Shown here piece by piece: positions 3,434 to 54,288 of a DNA stretch of 64,000 nucleotides (position 1 is its first letter; each line of letters starts with the position of its first letter). Below the pieces are notes generated by a model. That model worked only from the letters and a program-made list of their open reading frames with translations. It had not been told where the DNA came from and did not search any database. This stretch comes from Aporhodopirellula sallentina SM41 (lineage in GTDB: Bacteria > Planctomycetota > Planctomycetia > Pirellulales > Pirellulaceae): positions 1 through 64,000 of the forward strand of contig NZ_ANOH01000095.1 of the NCBI RefSeq assembly GCF_000346505.1. Reading direction: 5' to 3'. A program made the translations under genes and the position numbers.

Positions 3434-6400
3434 ATGCAGATAACTCGCTCGACTTATTCCGCACTGCCCCATCCGATTCTGCTTGTGTCGTTGGCTGTTT
3501 CCTGTTTCTACGTCGACGTGACGGGATGGGCCCAGGAGCACGCTGTTGCAGGCCCGGCCGATGCGTCCGTGGCTGCCGAAACCGAGTTGTTGACCAACAC
3601 GCGGAAACTGACTTGGGAAGGCCGCCGGGCAGGAGAAGGGTACTTCAGCGCGGACGGATCGAAGATGGTGTTCCAAAGCGAACGCGATCCCTCCAATCCG
3701 TTCTACCAAATCTATCTGACCGATCTCGAAACAGGAGACCTGCGTCGGATCAGCCCGGGGTTCGGAAAGACGACTTGCGCGTGGATTCATCCCGATGGTG
3801 ATCGCGTGTTGTTCGCCAGCACGCACGAAGACGAAAAAGCCGTGGCGAAGCAGGAAGAGGAAATCGCACTTCGCGAATCAGGCAAACAGCGCCGCTACAG
3901 TTGGGACTACGATCCGAACTACGAACTTTACGCGGCCGATTTGGATGCGATCGAAGAGGGCACCACCGAAGGATTGCGGCGACTGACCGACGCGAAAGGT
4001 TATGACGCGGAGGGTAGCTACAGTCCCGATGGCAGTTTGATCGTGTTCGCGTCCAATCGCGAAGCCTACCGCCGTGAATTGACGCCGCGCGAGAAAGAAC
4101 AGTTCGAAACGGATCCGGCTTTCATGATCGATCTGTACATGATCAAGGCCGATGGATCCGCTTTCGAAAACGGCGAGACGGTCAAACGTCTCACGGACGA
4201 ACCGGGTTACGACGGTGGACCGTTCTTCTCACCCGACGGCGAAAAGATTTGTTGGCGACGTTTTGCACCGAACGGCGCAACTGCCGAAATCTTTACGATG
4301 AACGTCGACGGAACCGATGTGAAACGTTTGACGAGTTTGAACGCGATGAGTTGGGCACCGTACTTTCATCCCAGCGGTGACTACCTGATCTTCACGACGA
4401 ACCGTCACGGCTTTGCGAACTTTGAGCTGTACCTCGTTCGTGCCGATGGAACCGGCGAACCGGTTCGTGTGACGACCACACCCGGTTTTGACGGGTTGCC
4501 GGTTTTCTTGCCCGGTGGCGATCAACTCTCGTGGACATCCAACCGTGTCTTGAACGCGGACGGAACGTTGGCGATGGAAGACGAGAAACCGAAACAGGGA
4601 ACGTCGCAGATCTATCTCGCTGACTTCGACGATCAAAAAGCACGCGAGTTGCTCGGGTTGACCGAAGACGGCGAGGACGGACAAAGCCGCGAGACCGAGA
4701 TCGCTCGCGAGAACGTACAAGCCACTGCGCCGGAGTATCGTCCGAGCGACGTGATGCGGCACGTGGATTTCCTGACCCGCAAGGAACTCGCCGGACGGAT
4801 GACGGGAACCGAAGGCGAACGCCGGGCGACGGCTTACGTGGCCGCTTATTTGGAAAGCCTCGGTTTTGTCGGCGCGGGCGACGACGGAACGTTCTTCCAA
4901 TCGTTCGAGTTCCCGGCCGGTTCGTCGTTGGGCGACGCCAATCGCGCGACGCTGACCCTTTCGTCCAAAGAACAGTCGCAGGCGTTGGATTTGTCATCGC
5001 AGTGGACTCCGTTGTCCTTCTCACAGACGGGCGAAATCGAACCGGCGGAAATCGTCTTTGCCGGATACGGGATGCAGATCCAAGGTGACGAGAACCACGA
5101 CCAATACGACAGCTACGTTCACCTGGATGTGTTGGACAAATGGGTGATGGTCTTCCGCGACGTGCCGCAGGACATTACGCCGGAAACGCGGCAATGGATG
5201 GCACGTTATGGGTCGCCACGCCGCAAGGCGACGATTGCCCGCGATCTAGGGGCCAGGGGTATTTTGTTTGTGTCGGGGCCGACCAGCAAAGTGAACCGGC
5301 AACTGATCCGGTTTGACCGCTCGGCGTCGCAAGCGGAGGTCAGCATTGCGGCGGTTTCGATCGACAATGAGACGGCGGCCAAAATTATCAGCCACGCGGG
5401 AGAGGATCTCGGTGAACTGCAGAAGTCGCTTGATGACGGATCGCTCGCGATGGGATTCCCGATCGAAGGAGTCACCCTCGGTGCGAATGTCGAAATCATC
5501 CGCCGGACGGGAACCGGGCGTAACGTGTTGGCTCGATTGCCGGCGAGCGATTCCGGTGACGCGACTTATCCGGTCGTGATGGTGGGAGCTCACATCGATC
5601 ACCTCGGACGCGGCGGCAGCAGCAACTCGTTGGCACGTGATGACGAGGAAGGACAGATTCACTACGGCGCCGACGACAACGCCAGCGGTGTCGCATCGAT
5701 GCTCGAGATCGCTCAATCGATCGCCTCAGAGAAACGGGCGGGCAAATGGAAGATGAAACGCGATCTGTTCATCGCCGCATGGAGCGGGGAGGAACTCGGG
5801 TTGTTCGGCTCGCAGTACTTCGTCGAGAACTTTTCCAAACAATATCCCGACGCGCCCAAACCGATCGTCGACGAGCAGGCGGCTGCGATGGCGACGGCTC
5901 ACGGGATGACCCCGGAGCCTTCGTCGCTGTCACCGGCGATCGGCGTCTACCTGAACCTCGACATGGTCGGACGATTGGATCAAAAACTGATCATCCAAGG
6001 CATCGGTTCGTCGCCTGGTTTCGAAGGTGAAGTGGGCCGCCGGAACGTGCCGGTCGGATTGCCGATCCAACTCGACCGCGCGAGCACAGGTTTGCCGACC
6101 GACGCGTCGGCGTTTGTCTCGCGAGGTGTTCCGATCCTGTCCGCCTTCACCGGTGCTCACGAAGACTACCACACGCCTCGTGATACGGCCGACAAGTTGA
6201 ACTACGACGCGACGGCAAAGATCGCCCGCTTGTTCGGTTTGCTGACCCGTGGCTTTCTCGGTTCGTCGAGCTTGCCGAAGTTCGAACTCAACGAAGGCGA
6301 CGCTGGCAAAGAAACGCCTCGGGTTGCGTTGCGGGCCTATCTCGGAACGATTCCCGATTACGCCGCCGGCGAAGTCAAAGGACAACGGCTCAGTGGCGTG

Positions 6401-45030: not shown

Positions 45031-45868
45031 TGCTCATCTGCTCCGTCGCATGAGTGCGGTGAAAAGCGGCGTCGGGAATCGCTGGCCTCGCCACCCCGGT
45101 GTGGGCTCGGTCCGTTCGTCTCAATTGATGCTTCATCGCGGTACGAAATTTCGAGAACCGCGTGCCAGGAATCGGAAAACTCCGCAGCAACTCTTTGAAC
45201 AGATGCGGCATCTGTTTTTCAAACTTCAGCTCGAGAATCTCAAACTCACCGATCGACCGAAAACCGCTGCGGGCGTCATCACCATAAACATCACCGGGCA
45301 TCGCAACGCTCCACCCACGAGGCGAACGGGCCACCATGTTGCTGTCGATGGTCAGTCGCAAATTCTCGCCGTTGACCATCGAAGTTCGTGCGAATCGCCG
45401 GTACGCAATTTCTGTCGCCGGGAACAAACGTCGCTCCGCGATTCGTTTCAAGAACCAATCGCCACACCAAGGCTCACCAGACGATTGGTCCGATGCCACT
45501 ACGCTGCCACCGGACTGCCGCGATAATTCGAGAACCTGTGCGGCGAAGTCCGATTCGAAAACGGCGGAGCGATTCTTTCGCACGACCATGTTCTTTTTGC
45601 GTTTGGTTTCGAGTACCAACATCTCGTCGCTGCCGTACCGGCGAACGCGATGTTTCGCTTTGCCAATCACACCGGTGCGATGATACAGATCGTAGTCGGG
45701 CGTATCGAGGTAGAGCGAATGGATGTCGTAACTATTGCTGCCATCGGAGGCACTGTTTTCATCGACACCGAGTCGGTCGATCGCCCAGTCCCTCACCTGT
45801 TCGGACAAATCCGCGTCGAGCATGAACTTCATCTCGACGCGTCGCAGCCTAGGATTCGCGTAGGTCAC
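45023..45868 (-). CDS. VTC-domain polyphosphate polymerase-like protein
   Basis: A 281-aa protein in the VTC/triphosphate-tunnel family. The N-terminal basic stretch R-R-V-E-M-K-F-M-L provides the ExK-type motif. [28 protein letters not shown] and the late E-L-K-F-E-K are tunnel-lining Lys/Arg/Glu positions. VTC domains make polyphosphate from ATP in yeast Vtc4; bacterial homologues are less well characterised. The GTG start overlaps the CotH gene stop (GTGA) and the 3' end overlaps the DUF4956 gene, so all three are one operon. Confidence 0.92.
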
Positions 45869-47856
45869 TTGGAAGCCTCCTTCAACAAAAACGCACCACG
45901 ACTGTCCGCGAACGCCTTCAAATTCATCGCGCCGTGGCCGCGTTGCGGAACGGCCTCGTGAGCGGGACTGGTCGATTCGGACATCACGGACGTGAACTGT
46001 TCGAACGTCGACAGACTTCGCGTTTCCGCTTTGACCGCATCTTCGATTAGCGAACGTTGCTGCTCGACAAACGGTCCGAGGTTGTTCCAGTTCAGATCAT
46101 TCTCGGCGAGCTCACGGAGGTTGCTCAGATACTGCTCGCGGTACTTAGGAACAGCCAACACTTTACTGCGTAGCGGTTTGCTGGCGTCGTTCAGGCCGAT
46201 CAACGGATCGAGTTCGACCGGTGAGGCGGTGTTGTCGCGTTCGCCCTGCTCGGGGCCTCCACCTCGTCGACCTCCACGACCTCGGCCGCCCATGCCCGGA
46301 CCACCTGCCCCGCGGAACGCTTCGTTCATATCGTGAGGGATGAAGTGAAACACGTCGTCCTTATCCAAAAACATGCTGTAGTCGCTCGCCCGAATCCAAT
46401 AGCCGTCCGAGTTAATCAGTCCATTGTCGAGAGCCAAGAACCACAACAATTCGTCAACGTCGACGATCGGCTCGAGAGCAGCGGGCAGGTCCGCGGTCGG
46501 CGTTTCTTCGAGGACGCGGCACAGTTCGATCAGTTTGGCGAGATCTTTGTCGTCGCCCGATTTTTGCTCATACGGGTGCTGATAGTTCGTAGGATCAGGA
46601 CCACGGTAATCGAGCCCACCGCCCCCGCGAGGCGATCCGCTGACTTTCCATCGGGCTCCCTTGCCACTGCCATAATTCTCTTTCAAGAACGCTTTGTTGA
46701 ATTGCTGAACGTTGCTGTAGACGCCCCAGTACTCGCCGTTGATGACAACGCGAACCAAGTTCGACTTGGGGACAACCATATGTTTTCCGGCAATCCGCGA
46801 GTACAAGACGGTGCTAAGCAGCGAGGCGTCGCCGTTGCAGTTGAGCAGGTTGAGCGTCTTGTACCCGAGCACGCGTTGGTCTTCGTTGGCCATGTCGACC
46901 GAAACGTTGAGCGAACGCTTGTATCCCGAAGGCACCATCCCGTACGACGACGCACCGCGGAAACGAATCCCGCAATTGGGATACTCTTCACCGTCCACCG
47001 TCAACGTTGCCGCAACATCGACATCGGTGTTGTGAAAGTCTTCCATCTCCGACTCCCAATCGTCGTTGGCAAAGTCGATGAAGATGGTTCGCAGCACCGA
47101 GGTATCGTAGAGCTCGTTGTCGAGCGGTTTGACGGATGACTTTTCGATCTTCTCTCCCGGTTTGGCTTCCGGACGATTGCCACCGCGTCCGCCCATCGGT
47201 CCGCCGGGACCTCCCGGTCCACCACGACCTCCGCGTCCGCCAAATCCACCACGGCCTCGCTCACCTCGTTCGAAACCGCCACGGTCAAAGCCGCCCCGAT
47301 CTCGGCCACCCTGATCTCGCCCTCGCTGATCTGGGCCGCCACGATCTGGGCCGCCACGATCTGGGCCGCCACGATCTGGGCCGCCACGATCTGGGCCGCC
47401 GCGATCTGGGCCACCGCGATCAAACCGGCCCTCGTCTCCTTCTGGGCCGAACTCAGGCGGAGGCCCAAATCCGGGTGGCGGGCCGAATCCTTCCGGTGGC
47501 CCACCAAATCCGCCGGGTCCACCCGGTCCGCCCGGTCCGCCGGGTCCGCCGGGTCCGCCGGGTCCGCCGGGTCCGCCGGGTCCGCCGGGTCCGCCGGGTC
47601 CACCAAACCCGCCCTGGCCGCCGGGGCCACCTGGCCCTCCAGGCCCGCCAAAGCCTCCTCGCTGGGCCGGGTTTTCTTTGACGTATTCTCTCGCCGATCG
47701 CCGTTCCGCCTCGTCCAACCATCCGTTTTGGTCGGTATCAAACTGGTCGAGAATTTCTCTTTCCTCACCGCCCATTCCCGGCGGTTGTGCGAGAGTGAAG
47801 GTGGCCGCAGCGACGACACCGAGAGCAAAAACAATCAAACCGACACGGGACAACAT
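45865..47856 (-). CDS. CotH-kinase-like exported protein with EF-hand and collagen-like repeats
   Basis: From the ATG at 47856 the product is 663 aa with a signal peptide ([17 protein letters not shown]). An EF-hand-like loop [10 protein letters not shown] (about 39-48) precedes a long G-G-P repeat and a G-G-P-D-R repeat region (about 70-220). A CotH kinase domain follows (about 245-600: [32 protein letters not shown]), with a second Gly/Arg-rich segment inside it. CotH proteins phosphorylate other proteins in spore coats, but here the target is unknown. The gene opens the operon with VTC and DUF4956. ATG 48048 would put 64 residues ahead of the signal peptide. Confidence 0.9.
47326..47415. 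repeat. 15-bp tandem repeat inside the cotH-like gene
   Basis: Six copies of acgatctgggccgcc (first and last slightly changed), each encoding G-G-P-D-R or G-G-P-D-Q on the minus strand. Copy-number changes would leave the frame intact. Confidence 0.9.
47512..47602. repeat. 9-bp tandem repeat (Gly-Gly-Pro codons) inside the cotH-like gene
   Basis: About ten units of gggtccgcc encode a G-G-P collagen-like run. Such arrays are prone to slippage in replication and assembly error, though every change stays in frame. Confidence 0.9.
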
Positions 47857-48330
47857 CAGGGGCTTCTCAACGGAACGGGGACTAGAAGGATCGCAGCCCT
47901 GCCCTCCTTTTGATGCCCTCTTTCGATAAACACCAAAACGGCTCACGCCGCTGTGGCCATCACCGAGGCCACGATTCACGCAGGAAACAGCGATCGAAAT
48001 CAATCTGCTGTTGAACCAGTTGCGTGGCAGCCGACAAACCGCCACCAAAAATTAACATTTCTCCCGCGCCGCAAAACGCGACCTGGGCTTTGGATCGGCG
48101 CCACCCTGAAATCGCGACGAGAGAGAGAGCCTGCCAGAGAGAGGCATGTGGAAATCGCCGCGTTTTGAGATATAAAGCCGCCCCGATCGGGCGGGCAGGG
48201 CAGCTACCGGCTAAGGTCGCTCGAACGTTAGAAGGACATACGCTTCGCGTACAAACCCCTAAACGCAAAATGCCCCGAATGGTCGAGGTGTAGGCCGGCC
48301 TAGAGGCGGGACATGATCGCTCCTCCGCCC

Positions 48331-48442
48331 CGTGGATGGCACCATCCGGCCATCGTTGGAGTCAAGGCTTTAGCCGATTGGTGTTTCGGTCGATGGGCGG
48401 CACCATCCGACCTCTCATGGGTGGCACCATCCAACCTCTCAT
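48331..48442. repeat. ggatggcaccatcc direct repeats plus a REP copy
   Basis: Three units of the form (g)gatgg-gca-ccatcc, each with an internal ggatgg/ccatcc palindrome, lie at about 48333, 48394 and 48419. Between the first two is REP copy 1 (cgttggagtcaaggctttag, 48354-48377). Confidence 0.75.
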
Positions 48443-48627
48443 TCTCTTTAAGAACCGGTTAATTCAAGAAAAATAGTGGGGGGCGACGGTGTGTTTCCGT
48501 AAATACCCTGTAAGCTGTGTTTTACCCCGTCGGCTGTTTGTGACCTATCTAACTCCGTCACCGAAAACCAAGTAATCCACTCACTTGGTTCAATTGACGA
48601 TCAACTCGTGGAAATAAGAGATTTGGA

Positions 48628-49389
48628 ATGTTCTCCAACAAACTAAGAACGATGCTTCACGCACTCCGGGTTGCGGCATTCGTGCTTCTTCTAGCGGCTG
48701 AATGCCAATCGTCGGTAATCACCATTGTTGATATGAATGCAGATGGGAACCCCTCTTCAGGAGCCGAACTCGAGGGAACCGTCGGAGGTAACGGAACTGA
48801 TGGAACTAGCTCCTTTGCTATTAACACGGCGCCCTCCTCGGTCCAGGTCGGCTCAACATCCGCTCGGTTCACAGTCTCCAACGTCGACTTGAATGATGAC
48901 AATTCTTTCAATGAGTCTTTCGTTTTTGATCTCACTTTCTCCTCTCCCAACGATATAAACTTCACCACTTCACTAGAAACAATGGGATTAGGGGGCGACG
49001 GACAGATCACGCTGGGCGAGTCATTCACAATGACATTCGACATCGTTTCCGATACATCAGCGACTCATGATGTTGTCTTTGATGGAGTCAGCGAAGTTGA
49101 TTTCATCAATCTCGCCGATACCGATCTCAGCATTACAAGTATGTCTGGTGGAACGACAATTACACTTGTCGGTGGTAGCACGCCGCTAGGTGGTTTGTAC
49201 GTCAACCCAACTTTCGAGTACTCCAACACGGGGGACCTGGCTGATTCCGGGACTTTTGAAGATTGGAGCGTTCAGTTCAGCACAATAACGGCAACTGCCG
49301 TTCCAGAACCATCGTCGCTCGCATTGCTAGGAGTAATTGCGGGGGTAGTCACCCTTCGGAATCGTCGAAGATTGGCGAAAGTGAATTAG
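48628..49389 (+). CDS. PEP-CTERM sorted exported protein
   Basis: A 253-aa protein with a signal peptide (A-L-R-V-A-A-F-V-L-L-L-A-A-E-C) and a C-terminal PEP-CTERM tail: V-P-E-P-S-S-L-A-L-L-G-V-I-A-G-V-V-T-L then R-N-R-R-R. The body is Asn/Asp/Ser/Thr-rich beta structure without recognised catalytic motifs. PEP-CTERM proteins are recognised by an exosortase and remain at the cell envelope; the exosortase gene is not in the window. Base composition looks more AT-rich than the neighbours, which may mean separate origin. Function unknown. Confidence 0.85.
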   Translation: MFSNKLRTMLHALRVAAFVLLLAAECQSSVITIVDMNADGNPSSGAELEGTVGGNGTDGTSSFAINTAPSSVQVGSTSARFTVSNVDLNDDNSFNESFVFDLTFSSPNDINFTTSLETMGLGGDGQITLGESFTMTFDIVSDTSATHDVVFDGVSEVDFINLADTDLSITSMSGGTTITLVGGSTPLGGLYVNPTFEYSNTGDLADSGTFEDWSVQFSTITATAVPEPSSLALLGVIAGVVTLRNRRRLAKVN

Positions 49390-49628
49390 GGTAGGACCTA
49401 GCCCAAGATGGATAGTTCCACGCCAAGGCAAATCAGTTTTTGAGATTGGATAGGGTCCACATGAGTTCGCTTGTCTTGGGTTCAGATGATAGGGGGGCCT
49501 TAGATGTGCTTCCCCTCCAAGGTAACGCAACGCCTTCAAGGTCGCGTTCGGTAAGCGTTTCAAGCTCACGGCATTATGAGTAGGAATATTAGAGAGAGTT
49601 GTTCATCGCGCCCCGCAGCCACTCCCAC

Positions 49629-49652
49629 CGTTGGAGTCAAGGCTTTAGCCGA
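49629..49652 (+). repeat. REP copy 2 (left of transposase)
   Basis: cgttggagtcaaggctttag plus ccga, identical to 48354-48377. It pairs with the inverted copy at 49737-49760, so 49629-49760 forms a BIME-like inverted pair in front of the transposase gene. Confidence 0.9.
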
Positions 49653-49736
49653 TCGCGGCCTGATCCCAAGTCACCATTCATCACACCGAACTCAAGTCCA
49701 TCATTCGGCGCGTCATCTCGCTGAGTGAGGGTAAAG

Positions 49737-49760
49737 TCGGCTAAAGCCTTCACTCCAACG
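49737..49760 (-). repeat. REP copy 3 (inverted, immediately before the transposase)
   Basis: tcggctaaagccttcactcc plus aacg is the inverse of copy 2 with one mismatch. It ends 12 bp before the transposase ATG. Confidence 0.9.
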
Positions 49761-49771
49761 GTATTCAGATC

Positions 49772-50401
49772 ATGCCGCGTGAATCGGAAACGATGTATCG
49801 CTGGCGGAGTTTGACGGACGAGCAGCGACGTCAGACGCTCGAACAGCGTCGCCAGTATCAACAGCCTTGGCACAGCATCCCGCATCGCAGTGACGAGACG
49901 CGAACGGTTTACATGCTTACCGCTGCATGCTTCGAGCACGTTCCCGTCATCGGCGAGTCTCCCGACCGCATGGCGAAGTTCGAAGCGGACCTTGTTCGTG
50001 TGCTTGGCGAGAACTGCACGCAAATCTACGCGTGGACCGTGCTGCCCAACCACTACCACGCGCTCGTTCAAACCCAGGAAATCCAGAGCCTGCTCAAGCA
50101 ACTCGGCAAACTGCATGGCCGCACCTCGTTCGACTGGAACGGCGATGATGAAACTCGCGGGCGGCAAGTTTGGTGCAACACCGCGGAAACCGTGATGAAG
50201 TCCGAGGGGCACTTTCATGCCTCGACCAATTACGTTTTGCATAACGCGGTCAAGCACGGGTACTGCGAAAAATGGACGGAGTGGCCGTACTGCAACGCAC
50301 GCGAATATCTTGAATCCGTTGGACGTGAGAAAGCCTTGCGAATCTGGAAGTCATACCCGATCGATGATTACGGGAATGACTGGGATCCGGCGGAGTTTTA
50401 G
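49772..50401 (+). CDS. REP-associated tyrosine transposase (RAYT, Y1/HUH family)
   Basis: A 209-aa protein with an HUH motif in T-V-L-P-N-H-Y-H-A-L-V (about residue 93-98) and a catalytic Tyr candidate in T-N-Y-V-L-H-N-A-V-K-H-G-Y. The size and fold match Y1-Tnp proteins related to IS200/IS605 TnpA. The gene is bracketed by four copies of a 24-bp REP (48354, 49629, 49737, 50443), two of them inverted, which is the setting expected of RAYT proteins. RAYTs cut and mobilise single-stranded REP DNA. No IS terminal repeats or accessory gene are seen, so this is a domesticated RAYT unit and not an IS. Confidence 0.93.
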   Translation: MPRESETMYRWRSLTDEQRRQTLEQRRQYQQPWHSIPHRSDETRTVYMLTAACFEHVPVIGESPDRMAKFEADLVRVLGENCTQIYAWTVLPNHYHALVQTQEIQSLLKQLGKLHGRTSFDWNGDDETRGRQVWCNTAETVMKSEGHFHASTNYVLHNAVKHGYCEKWTEWPYCNAREYLESVGREKALRIWKSYPIDDYGNDWDPAEF

Positions 50402-50442
50402 CGGAATGTGGGGGCCGTGAAATACGATGGGGTGTGACTTGG

Positions 50443-50466
50443 TCGGCTAAAGCCTTCACTCCAACG
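50443..50466 (-). repeat. REP copy 4 (right of transposase)
   Basis: Same sequence and orientation as 49737-49760, beginning 42 bp after the transposase stop. Confidence 0.9.
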
Positions 50467-50778
50467 GTTTCTGGCCTGCTCCTGTACTGGCTCGGCGGAT
50501 CAGGGGGAAACCAATCGTGTCTCGCCAGCCGCCTCCCAGACCGCGACCGCTGCACTGGCGTTCACCATGTTTTTGATGCGTGGCATTTCGGCCGCATTTG
50601 GCTTTGCAATCGCAAGGCGGTGATGCACAATTTCTTTTAGTCTATACTTTGTGACTGAAATCGATGCACCCGCGTTCGGTATCCTGAACGCGCCCGCCTT
50701 GCCCCCGCCCCGGTCGACCGACAGCCGACGTGAATCGTTCGCTGCTCGTCGCCACCACACCTACCCGCCGCTGAAAAT

Positions 50779-53700
50779 ATGAAACGCATTTGCCGTTGCA
50801 TCCCCGCCGAGCGACTCGCCCGGCTCGGGAGTGTGCTGCTTCTCACGCTCGCTATTGGTTCTGTTCTTGATCCTCATCGTGCCGGTGCCGACGAGTCCTT
50901 TGCGTTCCAAAAAGACGACGTCGTTGCAATCTACGGCAACGGTTTGGCCGACCGAATGCAGCATTCACCGTGGGTGGAAACGTTCCTTCAGTGCCAAACC
51001 CAAGGGCTCGACGTTCGCTTTCGAAACATGAGTTTTTCGGGCGACATGGTCAACAAGAAACCCCGCAGCAAAGGGTTCACCAACGATGACGAATACCTAC
51101 AGCACGTCGCACCGAGCGTCGTCTTCACCTTTTACGGGTACAACGAATCGTTCGCCGGACCAGAAGGAGCCGACGCCTATCGGCAAGAACTCATCAAACT
51201 CGTCCAACGCTATCGTGGACTGATGCAGGAGCAAGGCAAGGAAGTTCGCTTCGTGCTCTTCAGCCCAATCGCGTATCAAAACCTGGGCGATCGCAATCTG
51301 CCCGAAGGCACCGACCTGAACACCAACCTGGCCATCTACACCGAGGCAACGGCGAAAGCCGCCGAGGATGCGGGCGTTTCGTTCGTGGACCTATTCACAC
51401 CGACTCGCCGGCTGTTCGCTAGCACATCCGAACCGTACACGCTCAACGGCATTCACTTAAACGCCAAAGGATACGAGAAACTCGCCGAGATCATCACGGA
51501 CGCTCTGACCGGCACGACGCTCACGCAGACATCCAACATCAGCAAAGTTTATGACGCCGTGCAAGACAAAAACTGGCACTGGCACAATCGCTACCGAGCC
51601 ACCGATGGCAATGACATTTGGGGATCCCGCTCGACGTTGACTTTTGTTGACGGACAGAGCAACGCGGACGTGCTCAAACACGAACTCGAGATGCTCGACG
51701 TGATGACGGCCAACCGCGACGAAGCCATTTGGGCAGCGGTCGCCGGAAAGCAACACGTCGTTGACGACAGCAACGTACCTCCTCCGGTCGAAGTCATCTC
51801 GAACATCGGCGGTGGCAGTCGCAGTTCGAGCGCAAAGAAGGAAGGCAACATCGACTACCTGACGCCGGAAGAGTCGATCACAAAGATGAACGCCCCCGAA
51901 GGATACGAATTAAACGTCTTCGCATCCGAGGTGCAGTTCCCCGACCTCGCCAATCCGGTGCAAATGCAAGTCGACGGGCACGGCCGGTTGTGGGTCGCGA
52001 GTTGGAACTCCTATCCGAAATGGGAACCCGGCACGGAACTCAAAGACAGCCTCATGATCCTGGAGGACACCGACAACGACGGCAAAGCGGACTCGCGAAA
52101 GATCTTTGCGACCGTTCACAATCCGCTCGGTTTCGAATTCTGGGGTGGCGGCGTGATCGTAACGTCCGGCCCCGATCTGCTGTTTCTCAAAGACACCGAC
52201 GGCGACGACAAAGCCGACGTGCGTCAGGTGTTGCTGCAGGGACTCGGCACGTCGGACACTCACCACGCGGCCAACAATTTGGTCTACGGTCCTGACGGTG
52301 GTATCTACTGGCAGAGCGGAATCTTCCTGGTCCACAACCACGAAACCCCGTGGAAGCAAAACCTGCATATCGGTGCCTCGGGCATGTACCGATTCGATCC
52401 ACGGACGTTTGCCATCACGCCTCATGCCGCCAACAGCCCGAACCCGCACGGCACGAGTTTCGACTACTGGGGCTACTGCTATGCCAACGACGGCACCGGC
52501 GGTCGGTCGTACCAAGTGCGTCCCGAAGGCAAGGGATTCAAGATGCACACGTTGCTGACCAAAGAGTTCCGCCCCGTTGCCGCGAACGCGATTTTGTCAT
52601 CGCAGCACTTCCCCGAGGAGATCCAAAACGATTTCCTCATCTGCAACACAATCGGGTTCCTAGGGGTCAAACAATATTCTCTCGATCGCGAGGGCGACGG
52701 TAAATCACGAAAGTTCGGCGAAGTCTGGGGCACGCCGGGGCTCGAACTGATCAACAGCGATGATCGCAACTTTCGCCCGACCGATGCGGTCGTCGGTGAA
52801 GACGGTGCGTTATACGTTTCGGATTGGCACAATGCCATCATCGGGCACATGCAACATAACATTCGTGACCCCAATCGCGATCACGCACACGGCCGTATCC
52901 TGCGTTTGACGGTCAAGGATCGTCCGCTGCAGGAACCGGTCAAGATCGCCGGGCAACCGATCGCTGCCCTCCTCGAAAACCTCAAACACCCGACCAACGG
53001 CGTTCGACACCGAACCCGCGTGGAACTCAGCGCGCGCGATTCCAACGAAGTGATTGCCGCCGCACAGACATGGTGTGCCGATTTCGATCCGAACGACGAA
53101 ACGGAAGCCCACCATTTGCTCGAGGCCCTTTGGCTGCATCAGCAACACAACGTTCGAAACGAAGAACTGCTCGAGACGTTGCTCAGCTCGAATGTCAAAC
53201 ACGCTGCCATGGCTGCCAAAACGGTTAAACACTTTTGGGAGAACGTCGACACGACCGGAGGAAGCGGTTTCGCATCCGAGGCCGAAAGCGAGTTCGTCAA
53301 ATTCTCGACACCGAAGCACCTCGATCGATCACTTCGCAAAACCTATCGCCTCGGCTCACAGGTCTATCAACGTGAATCACACTGCGCGACGTGTCACCTG
53401 ACGCACGGCAAAGGGAACGAAACGGTTTACCCGTCGCTGGTCGACAGCCCCTGGGTTCTCGGCGACGAAGAACGCTTGATTAAATTGTCACTCCACGGCC
53501 TTTGGGGAAAACTCTCGGTTCACGGCAAGACGTTTGATCCTGCACGCGGCACCCCGCCGATGACCGCTTTCCGGTCACTACTGAGCGACAAAGAACTCGC
53601 CGCCGTGCTCACCTTTGTCCGCAACACATGGGGCAATGAAGCCTCCCCGATCAGTTCCCGTACGGTCAAACGTGTCCGCGAACAAACCGCCGGACGTTCC

Positions 53701-54288
53701 ACGTTCTATAAACCCGCCGACCTGCTCGCCGAGCATCCGTTGGAACCCGAATTTGCCGATGCGGCAATGGCGGCCGCAGAAGAGTTCTCCAACGAACCTC
53801 TCGAAGCCGAACTGCTCGCGTCGTCGGCTGCTGAACTCGCTAGCGTTGCGATCGAACGCGGCAACGCGAAGCGAGGACAGAAGGTCTTCTACGAGTCATC
53901 GGCGGCATGCTTTGCGTGTCACGACCCTCCGGGCGGCGCTGCGAAATTCGGACCCGACCTGGCTCAAATGACCACCGCGTTAACGCCCGAACAACTGGTC
54001 GATGCGATCCTACGACCGTCTGTGTTGATCAACAAAGACTTCGCGCAGGTCAGTGTACTGACAGCCGACGGCGAATTGATTACCGGCATCCTGGTTTCCG
54101 AAACGGACGATGAGGTCGTTCTACGCAACGTCGCATCACCGGAACCGATCACGATCCCACAAGACGACGTCGAAGAGATCATCGAATCGAAAGTCTCGAT
54201 GATGCCTGAGAACTTGGTCCGGCAACTCAAGAGCCGCAGCGAGTTCGATGACTTGGTAAAATACATCATCGACGTCCGCAGTAAGTAA
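50779..54288 (+). CDS. SGNH-like / propeller dehydrogenase-like / cytochrome c fusion (PVC-type)
   Basis: A 1169-aa exported protein (signal peptide to about residue 38). Residues about 45-240 resemble an SGNH/GDSL hydrolase (Y-G-N-G-L-A-D-R, late D/H region [10 protein letters not shown]), but the usual GDS serine block reads G-N-G. About 370-760 is a membrane-bound-dehydrogenase-type propeller ([29 protein letters not shown]). Two c-type haem sites follow, C-A-T-C-H (about 868) and C-F-A-C-H (about 1044), the second starting the PVC haem-binding domain. A role in periplasmic electron transfer or polysaccharide oxidation is inferred; the substrate is unknown. Confidence 0.9.

Follow-up and report, generated by a model that had tools for sequence, protein, structure and literature searches.

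A compact unit made up of an inverted pair of REP hairpins (a REPIN), a RAYT (REP-associated tyrosine, Y1/HUH) transposase gene and one further REP was found at 49627-50468 of the analysed window, a stretch of 64,000 nt from Aporhodopirellula sallentina SM41, a planctomycete of the Pirellulaceae (C95:1-64000 of a genome of 8,186,686 bases in 491 contigs). Very probably, this is a RAYT/REPIN unit of the known kind, belonging to a variant whose guide differs from GT[AG]G in most cases. The computed evidence consists of the fold and catalytic residues of the protein, the inverted hairpins that flank its gene, compensatory changes in the hairpin stems and a dependence of REPs on the RAYT within the genus. 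A sequence-only reading of the same DNA had described a compact RAYT/REP unit in a planctomycete; fold, residues, inverted hairpins and the REP dependence among congeners bear this out, but the textbook REP tag is missing.

Organization of the unit

Four copies of a REP 24-mer lie around the Y1/HUH gene, at 48354 (+), 49629 (+), 49737 (-) and 50443 (-). The sequence-only reading had counted four copies of one 24-mer; all were found, and they are one sequence up to a single substitution that separates the orientations, GTCAAG in both plus copies and GTGAAG in both minus copies. REP copies 2 (49629-49652, +) and 3 (49737-49760, -), with 84 nt in between, are the left and right arms of the upstream REPIN (49627-49762, 136 bp), in which the two inverted REPs have their heads outward and which is homologous to the REPIN plus RAYT of the congener G373. 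As had been claimed, this inverted pair is immediately upstream of the gene, copy 3 ending 11 nt short of the ATG at 49772. Another copy was correctly placed just after the gene: REP copy 4 (50443-50466, -) starts 41 nt past the stop codon, and together with copy 2 it flanks the RAYT gene in inverted orientation. REP copy 1 (48354-48377, +) is a solitary member of the same repeat family outside the compact unit, upstream of a PEP-CTERM protein gene. The unit had been drawn from 48354 to 50466, and this extent has to be shortened because copy 1 stands 1,251 nt from the next copy, with the PEP-CTERM gene in between.

The REP reads 5'-GTT-GGAG-T, followed by two to three bases that are unpaired or mismatched, a GGC/GCC stem and a TTTA loop. 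The stem has three pairs only, above an AA/GA mismatch that bears only a resemblance to the AA/GC bulge described for the E. coli REP (PMC8266576). Since it lacks the canonical GT[AG]G tag, we regard it as a variant and not as a textbook REP. The REPIN folds end to end at -34.8 kcal/mol (z -7.05), a fold that the inverted repeat itself gives. Three of the own copies, folded as single REPs, did no better than shuffled sequences, and no Rfam match at the gathering threshold was obtained in 48000-51000.

The RAYT gene (49772-50401, +) is an open reading frame of 209 aa. The catalytic Tyr/HUH residues, whose absence would have refuted the sequence-only reading, are present, as NHYH at residues 93-96 and a putative catalytic Tyr154 within YVLHNAVK. 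Among the aligned stop-free proteins, own included, His94 and Tyr154 are conserved in 75/75 and His96 in 74/75; in 7 of the 80 named loci described below the matched frame is interrupted by a stop, and these do not enter the counts. Of the 73 named loci without a stop, 53 were used in the fold alignment together with the window protein. From the order scan, which had 15 match rows, 12 went into orthologue set A1, and nine of those into A2. With a nine-orthologue profile, the top solved match was TnpA_REP (4er8, E 7.6e-9), followed by the ISDra2 transposases (2xm3, 2xma, 2xo6) near 0.01. The AlphaFold model of the protein (pLDDT 88.5, pTM 0.82) gave 4er8 as top Foldseek match as well (E 4.8e-9; TM-score 0.66 relative to target length, 0.54 relative to the query), with IS608 and ISDra2 transposases ranked after it. 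We assign the protein to the RAYTs on its Y1/HUH core, its HUH motif with a downstream Tyr and TnpA_REP as its nearest match, with both family scores below their cut-offs (NF047646, 69.9 bits against 80; PF01797, 17.1 bits against 23).

REP copies in the A. sallentina genome

The 24-mer matches nine genome places at up to two mismatches, four of them without mismatch and all four local, and the pattern read backwards as a control matched nowhere in the 8.19-Mb genome at this threshold. A looser REP pattern with up to three mismatches found 20 places versus 2 in the control, and a covariance model (R1) gave 27 at E <= 1, of which 19, the four local ones included, reach E <= 1e-3. The sequence-only reading had suggested a genome count of the 24-mer and was to be given up if the REP was not enriched elsewhere. 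No exact copy exists outside the four local ones in the 8.19-Mb genome, which comes near to that outcome; the count yielded 15 diverged relatives dispersed in the genome (R1, E <= 1e-3), 7 of which had been R1 seeds and match the model by construction. In several distant copies GCC/GGC stands in place of GGC/GCC, so that both sides have changed and the stem still pairs.

Classical REP families are described as having high copy numbers, usually over 100 per genome (PMC2817692). With 19 members at E <= 1e-3 and only four exact 24-mers, the own family is not a classical abundant one. The unit itself is intact, and the REPs of the own genome appear to be few and old. The RAYT clade has a single match in the own genome, all other NF047646 matches scoring 49 bits or less, and several near-identical full copies, as would mark an IS200/IS605 element, are not found. 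Nine NF047646 matches at E <= 0.01 (L033-L041) were also recorded in the own genome; they have open frames of 148-434 aa, and none is over the cut-off.

REP number and RAYT presence in the genus and order

Among the 13 genomes of the genus, a RAYT at E < 1e-100 occurs only in the own genome and in G373; ten congeners have weaker matches only (best 5.2e-11) and G379 has none at E <= 1e-5. REPs at E <= 1e-3 number 19 in the own genome, 45 in G373, one each in G379 and G386 and 0 in the other nine. Both genomes with the RAYT thus hold 19 and 45 REPs and all 11 without it hold 0-1 (p 0.013), and G373 was not among the R1 seeds. Within the genus, REP number follows the presence of the cognate RAYT.

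At least 15 inverted REP pairs were found in G373, with lower coordinates that lie 80-120 bp from each other (107 here). The DNA common to both units is 49622-50401 at 82%, beginning 5 nt outside the REPIN and ending at the stop codon, and 176/206 aligned residues are shared by the two RAYT proteins. The two units adjoin different genes: the orthologue of the own 1169-aa downstream gene lies on another G373 contig, and the stretch fetched around it contains no RAYT match. On contig C8 of G373 (L185), positions 187-267 and 4903-4942, beside REPs, match the first and the last part of the RAYT gene and are likely remnants of further unit copies.

These observations bear on a reading that we consider unlikely, in which the RAYT and its flanking hairpins travel together as a self-moving insertion sequence (IS-like or TIRtron-like) and the REPs are by-products. 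A REPIN and RAYT block that is common to two genomes beside different genes agrees with such movement, and apparent 5' and 3' remnants of the RAYT next to REPs in G373 are what whole-unit copies would leave. However, those remnants are short (alignments of 95 and 40 nt) and could be produced by local recombination between REPs, and the RAYT clade is single-copy in the own genome, unlike an active insertion sequence. The patchy presence of the RAYT (2/13 congeners and 13/296 genomes of the order at E <= 1e-10) would suit an insertion sequence, but gain, loss or rearrangement explain it too.

In the order, 13 of the 296 genomes, own included, have a RAYT match at this threshold. R1 matches at E <= 1e-4 were found in 10/13 of the RAYT genomes and in 20/283 others, with only part of the candidates per genome scored. 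This association is partly by construction, because the R1 seeds include REPs beside several of these RAYTs. Nine of the 20 genomes that have REP matches but no RAYT at E <= 1e-10 have 10 or more of them. The three RAYT genomes without an R1 match are G267, which has a different head, and the distant G004 and G241.

Hairpin design among relatives in other phyla

A scan of named genomes returned 267 relatives, the best 80 of which were kept as loci; by record titles, these 80 belong to Planctomycetota, Verrucomicrobiota and Acidobacteriota, with a few from KSB1, Calditrichaeota, Hydrogenedentota and others. A plasmid search for the RAYT returned one distant match (23% identity) among 72,556 records. 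The seed REPs of R1 had been picked with a stem required. Therefore, guide counts were taken from a hairpin-only search and pair counts from a head-loop search.

The hairpin-only search asked for a perfect 5-bp stem and a TTYA loop in the 80 named loci, and it was run without the head because the head pattern cannot match GTGG. It found 305 hairpins within 500 bp of the gene, in 65/80 loci, and 19 beyond 1 kb. The place of the guide is taken by GGAG in 149 of the 305, AGAG in 42, GGTG in 40, GTAG in 39, TGAG in 15, GGGG in 7 and rarer ones in the remainder. GTGG was found in none, and the tag of the GTAG REP superfamily (GT[AG]G at the hairpin foot), which the own GGAG does not match, is thus confined among these relatives to the 39 hairpins with GTAG. 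The tetranucleotide conforms to NKWG in 287/305 hairpins, and the next base is T in 299/305.

The second search required head, spacing and loop, not the stem, in the 80 loci plus the own one. It gave 302 matches within 500 bp in 71/81 loci, the other ten having no head-loop match. Stem pairs 1-3 form in 97-98% of these matches. At pair 2, 163 distinct sequences have G-C in 79 cases, C-G in 61 and A-T in 13; at pair 3 they have G-C in 104, A-T in 32 and C-G in 16. The 22 matches beyond 1 kb are also mostly paired (91-95%), so head plus loop alone marks REPs in these loci, and the near-far contrast is one of number. After the head alone, a stem of at least 5 follows in 262/455 cases near the gene versus 29/263 beyond 1 kb. 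REPs on both sides of the gene face outward in 50/81 loci and inward in 30/81. The distances of RAYTs and REPs are correlated over 65 loci (Mantel r 0.35, reached by 0/5000 permutations), which shared ancestry alone could also yield. A common design recurs in several phyla: GTT(N), a guide (GGAG, AGAG, GGTG, sometimes GTAG), T, a short stem with compensatory changes and a TTTA or TTCA loop. Beside five RAYT orthologues (L043, L044, L045, L046 and L049), REPs or REP pairs are arranged head to tail at intervals of 27-80 bp in BIME-like arrays.

That a chance or unrelated repeat family happens to adjoin a Y1 gene would fit the lack of an exact copy elsewhere in the genome, but is contradicted by the same architecture beside relatives in 71/81 loci, by the near-far contrast obtained without the head and by the dependence seen in the genus; we consider it highly implausible. 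A further reading, to which we give slightly less credence than to the insertion sequence, holds that the RAYT is domesticated or idle and that the hairpins mainly act on RNA, as terminators or in translation control of the RAYT and its neighbours. In favour of this, REP copy 3 ends 11 nt from the ATG, the REPIN can form a long hairpin, and the own REP population is small and diverged. However, compensatory stem changes over many loci and a kept catalytic site are expected if an enzyme-hairpin pair is selected, and an RNA role alone leaves it unexplained that NKWG-T is conserved beside one arm of the hairpin. The RNA and transposase roles are compatible with each other.

Neighbouring genes and a second hairpin repeat

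The PEP-CTERM protein gene (48628-49389; PF07589, 24.6 bits against a cut-off of 20.7) lies between REP copy 1 and the rest. Upstream lies a CotH protein gene (45865-48048, -; PF08757), in which a run of 9-bp repeats at 47500-47667 encodes a GGP-rich stretch, and downstream of the unit follows the gene of the 1169-aa cytochrome c/GDSL-domain protein (50779-54288, +). A composite element from 48354 to 50466 carrying the PEP-CTERM gene as cargo was considered and rejected, because the G373 unit has no adjoining PEP-CTERM gene and the shared block starts at 49622. In eight relatives, the stretches fetched around the 1169-aa gene lack the upstream CotH gene at E <= 1e-30, and their comparison with the own 48000-51200 gave no DNA match starting before about 50886. 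A base-level empty site that would delimit the insertion was not found among these relatives.

A second hairpin repeat with the core TGGTGGGTGGCACCAT has 29 places in the own genome at up to two mismatches versus 3 in the control. The related copies in the window, at 48333-48351, 48394-48412 and 48418-48436, surround the REP at 48354, and one of them is among these 29. Four Y1 genes examined in the own genome (L037-L040; 386-389 aa) have NH[ML]H, YVDLNP and a HUH-Tyr distance of 113, like subclass 2.3. The second repeat (up to three mismatches) lies 64-71 bp upstream of 4/4 of them, with an inverted copy 176-286 bp downstream in 3/4. For subclasses 2.1 and 2.3, PMC6006769 reports no REP-like sequences. 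One of these Y1 proteins has no Pfam match at 1e-3, and another scores 36.5 bits with NF047646, below the cut-off. Two of four Alteromonadales plasmid homologues have no inverted flank; in a third the flank measures 16 nt, and in the fourth 11 nt (background for the latter 25/300).

Discussion

The unit resembles the E. coli TnpA_REP (4er8) and the RAYTs of Pseudomonas and Stenotrophomonas in its Y1/HUH fold and in a single gene with inverted REP flanks (PMC2817692; PMC8266576). With the gammaproteobacterial REPtrons described there it also shares REP pairs and a conserved 5' tag ahead of the hairpin. It differs from them in a guide that is mostly GGAG, AGAG or GGTG with GTT before it, in the very short own stem and in the few copies in the own genome. 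A literature search returned no paper joining GGAG, RAYT and REP as whole words, and none joining Rhodopirellula with 'repetitive extragenic palindromic'.

REPtron Mb comes from Marinomonas, which is a gammaproteobacterium. This group 3 REPtron is alike in having a REP with a TTTA loop and differs in its GTAG guide, and its enzyme is described as tolerant of guide changes (PMC8266576). TnpA_Y1 subclass 2.8 (PMC6006769) is alike in its length of about 200 aa and in NHYH; in the published motifs, which alone were compared, it has W[YH] and YIHYNP, versus W[CHFY] and Y[VI][HL][HN]N[PA] here. In the sample described there, it consists of 8 proteins from Cyanobacteria only, with long canonical GT[AG]G REPs.

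Another comparison is with 'R. baltica', which we take to be the planctomycete Rhodopirellula baltica. Several GTAG REP families are described for it, together with many genes for tyrosine transposases that have repeats at their flanks (PMC3733652). These repeats are filed under the GTAG tag, by which they would differ from the own repeat with its head GTTGGAGT.

Returning to the RAYT/REPIN unit as the preferred reading, we infer that the RAYT may bind the REPs, use their guide, cleave them and mobilise them. Most likely it works like TnpA_REP, the Y1 transposase recognising one strand of the REP as a single-stranded hairpin, with GGAG as the guide that would choose the cleavage site. By analogy with TnpA_REP, Tyr154 and the HYH metal site would cut beside the hairpin and then rejoin the DNA. 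The likely mobile cargo is the inverted REP pair, the 136-bp REPIN. The RAYT would work in trans and spread REPINs, its own gene staying nearly single-copy. In G373 a homologous RAYT coexists with dispersed REP pairs, and the own genome has an intact unit with few and diverged REPs.

It is tempting to speculate further that one lineage of RAYTs, which record titles place in Planctomycetota, Verrucomicrobiota, Acidobacteriota and other phyla, has an extended tag, GTT(N)-NKWG-T, instead of GT[AG]G, and that its enzymes have differing cleavage dinucleotides under one guide rule. We put this forward tentatively, as somewhat short of an even chance. The guide varies (GGAG, AGAG, GGTG, GTAG, TGAG) on a constant stem and loop design, so each enzyme would pick a different cleavage dinucleotide. 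If the guide rule holds, cleavage sites would be predictable from sequence, and the members of the clade would form a natural panel from which to read the guide code of TnpA_REP. The REP biochemistry described in PMC8266576 comes from gammaproteobacterial systems that have GTAG as their guide; in this clade, many enzyme-hairpin pairs occur naturally whose guides differ. The genus, with few and diverged REPs here, a larger set of paired ones in G373 and 0-1 REPs in eleven genomes, provides a testbed for the dependence of REPINs on their RAYT.
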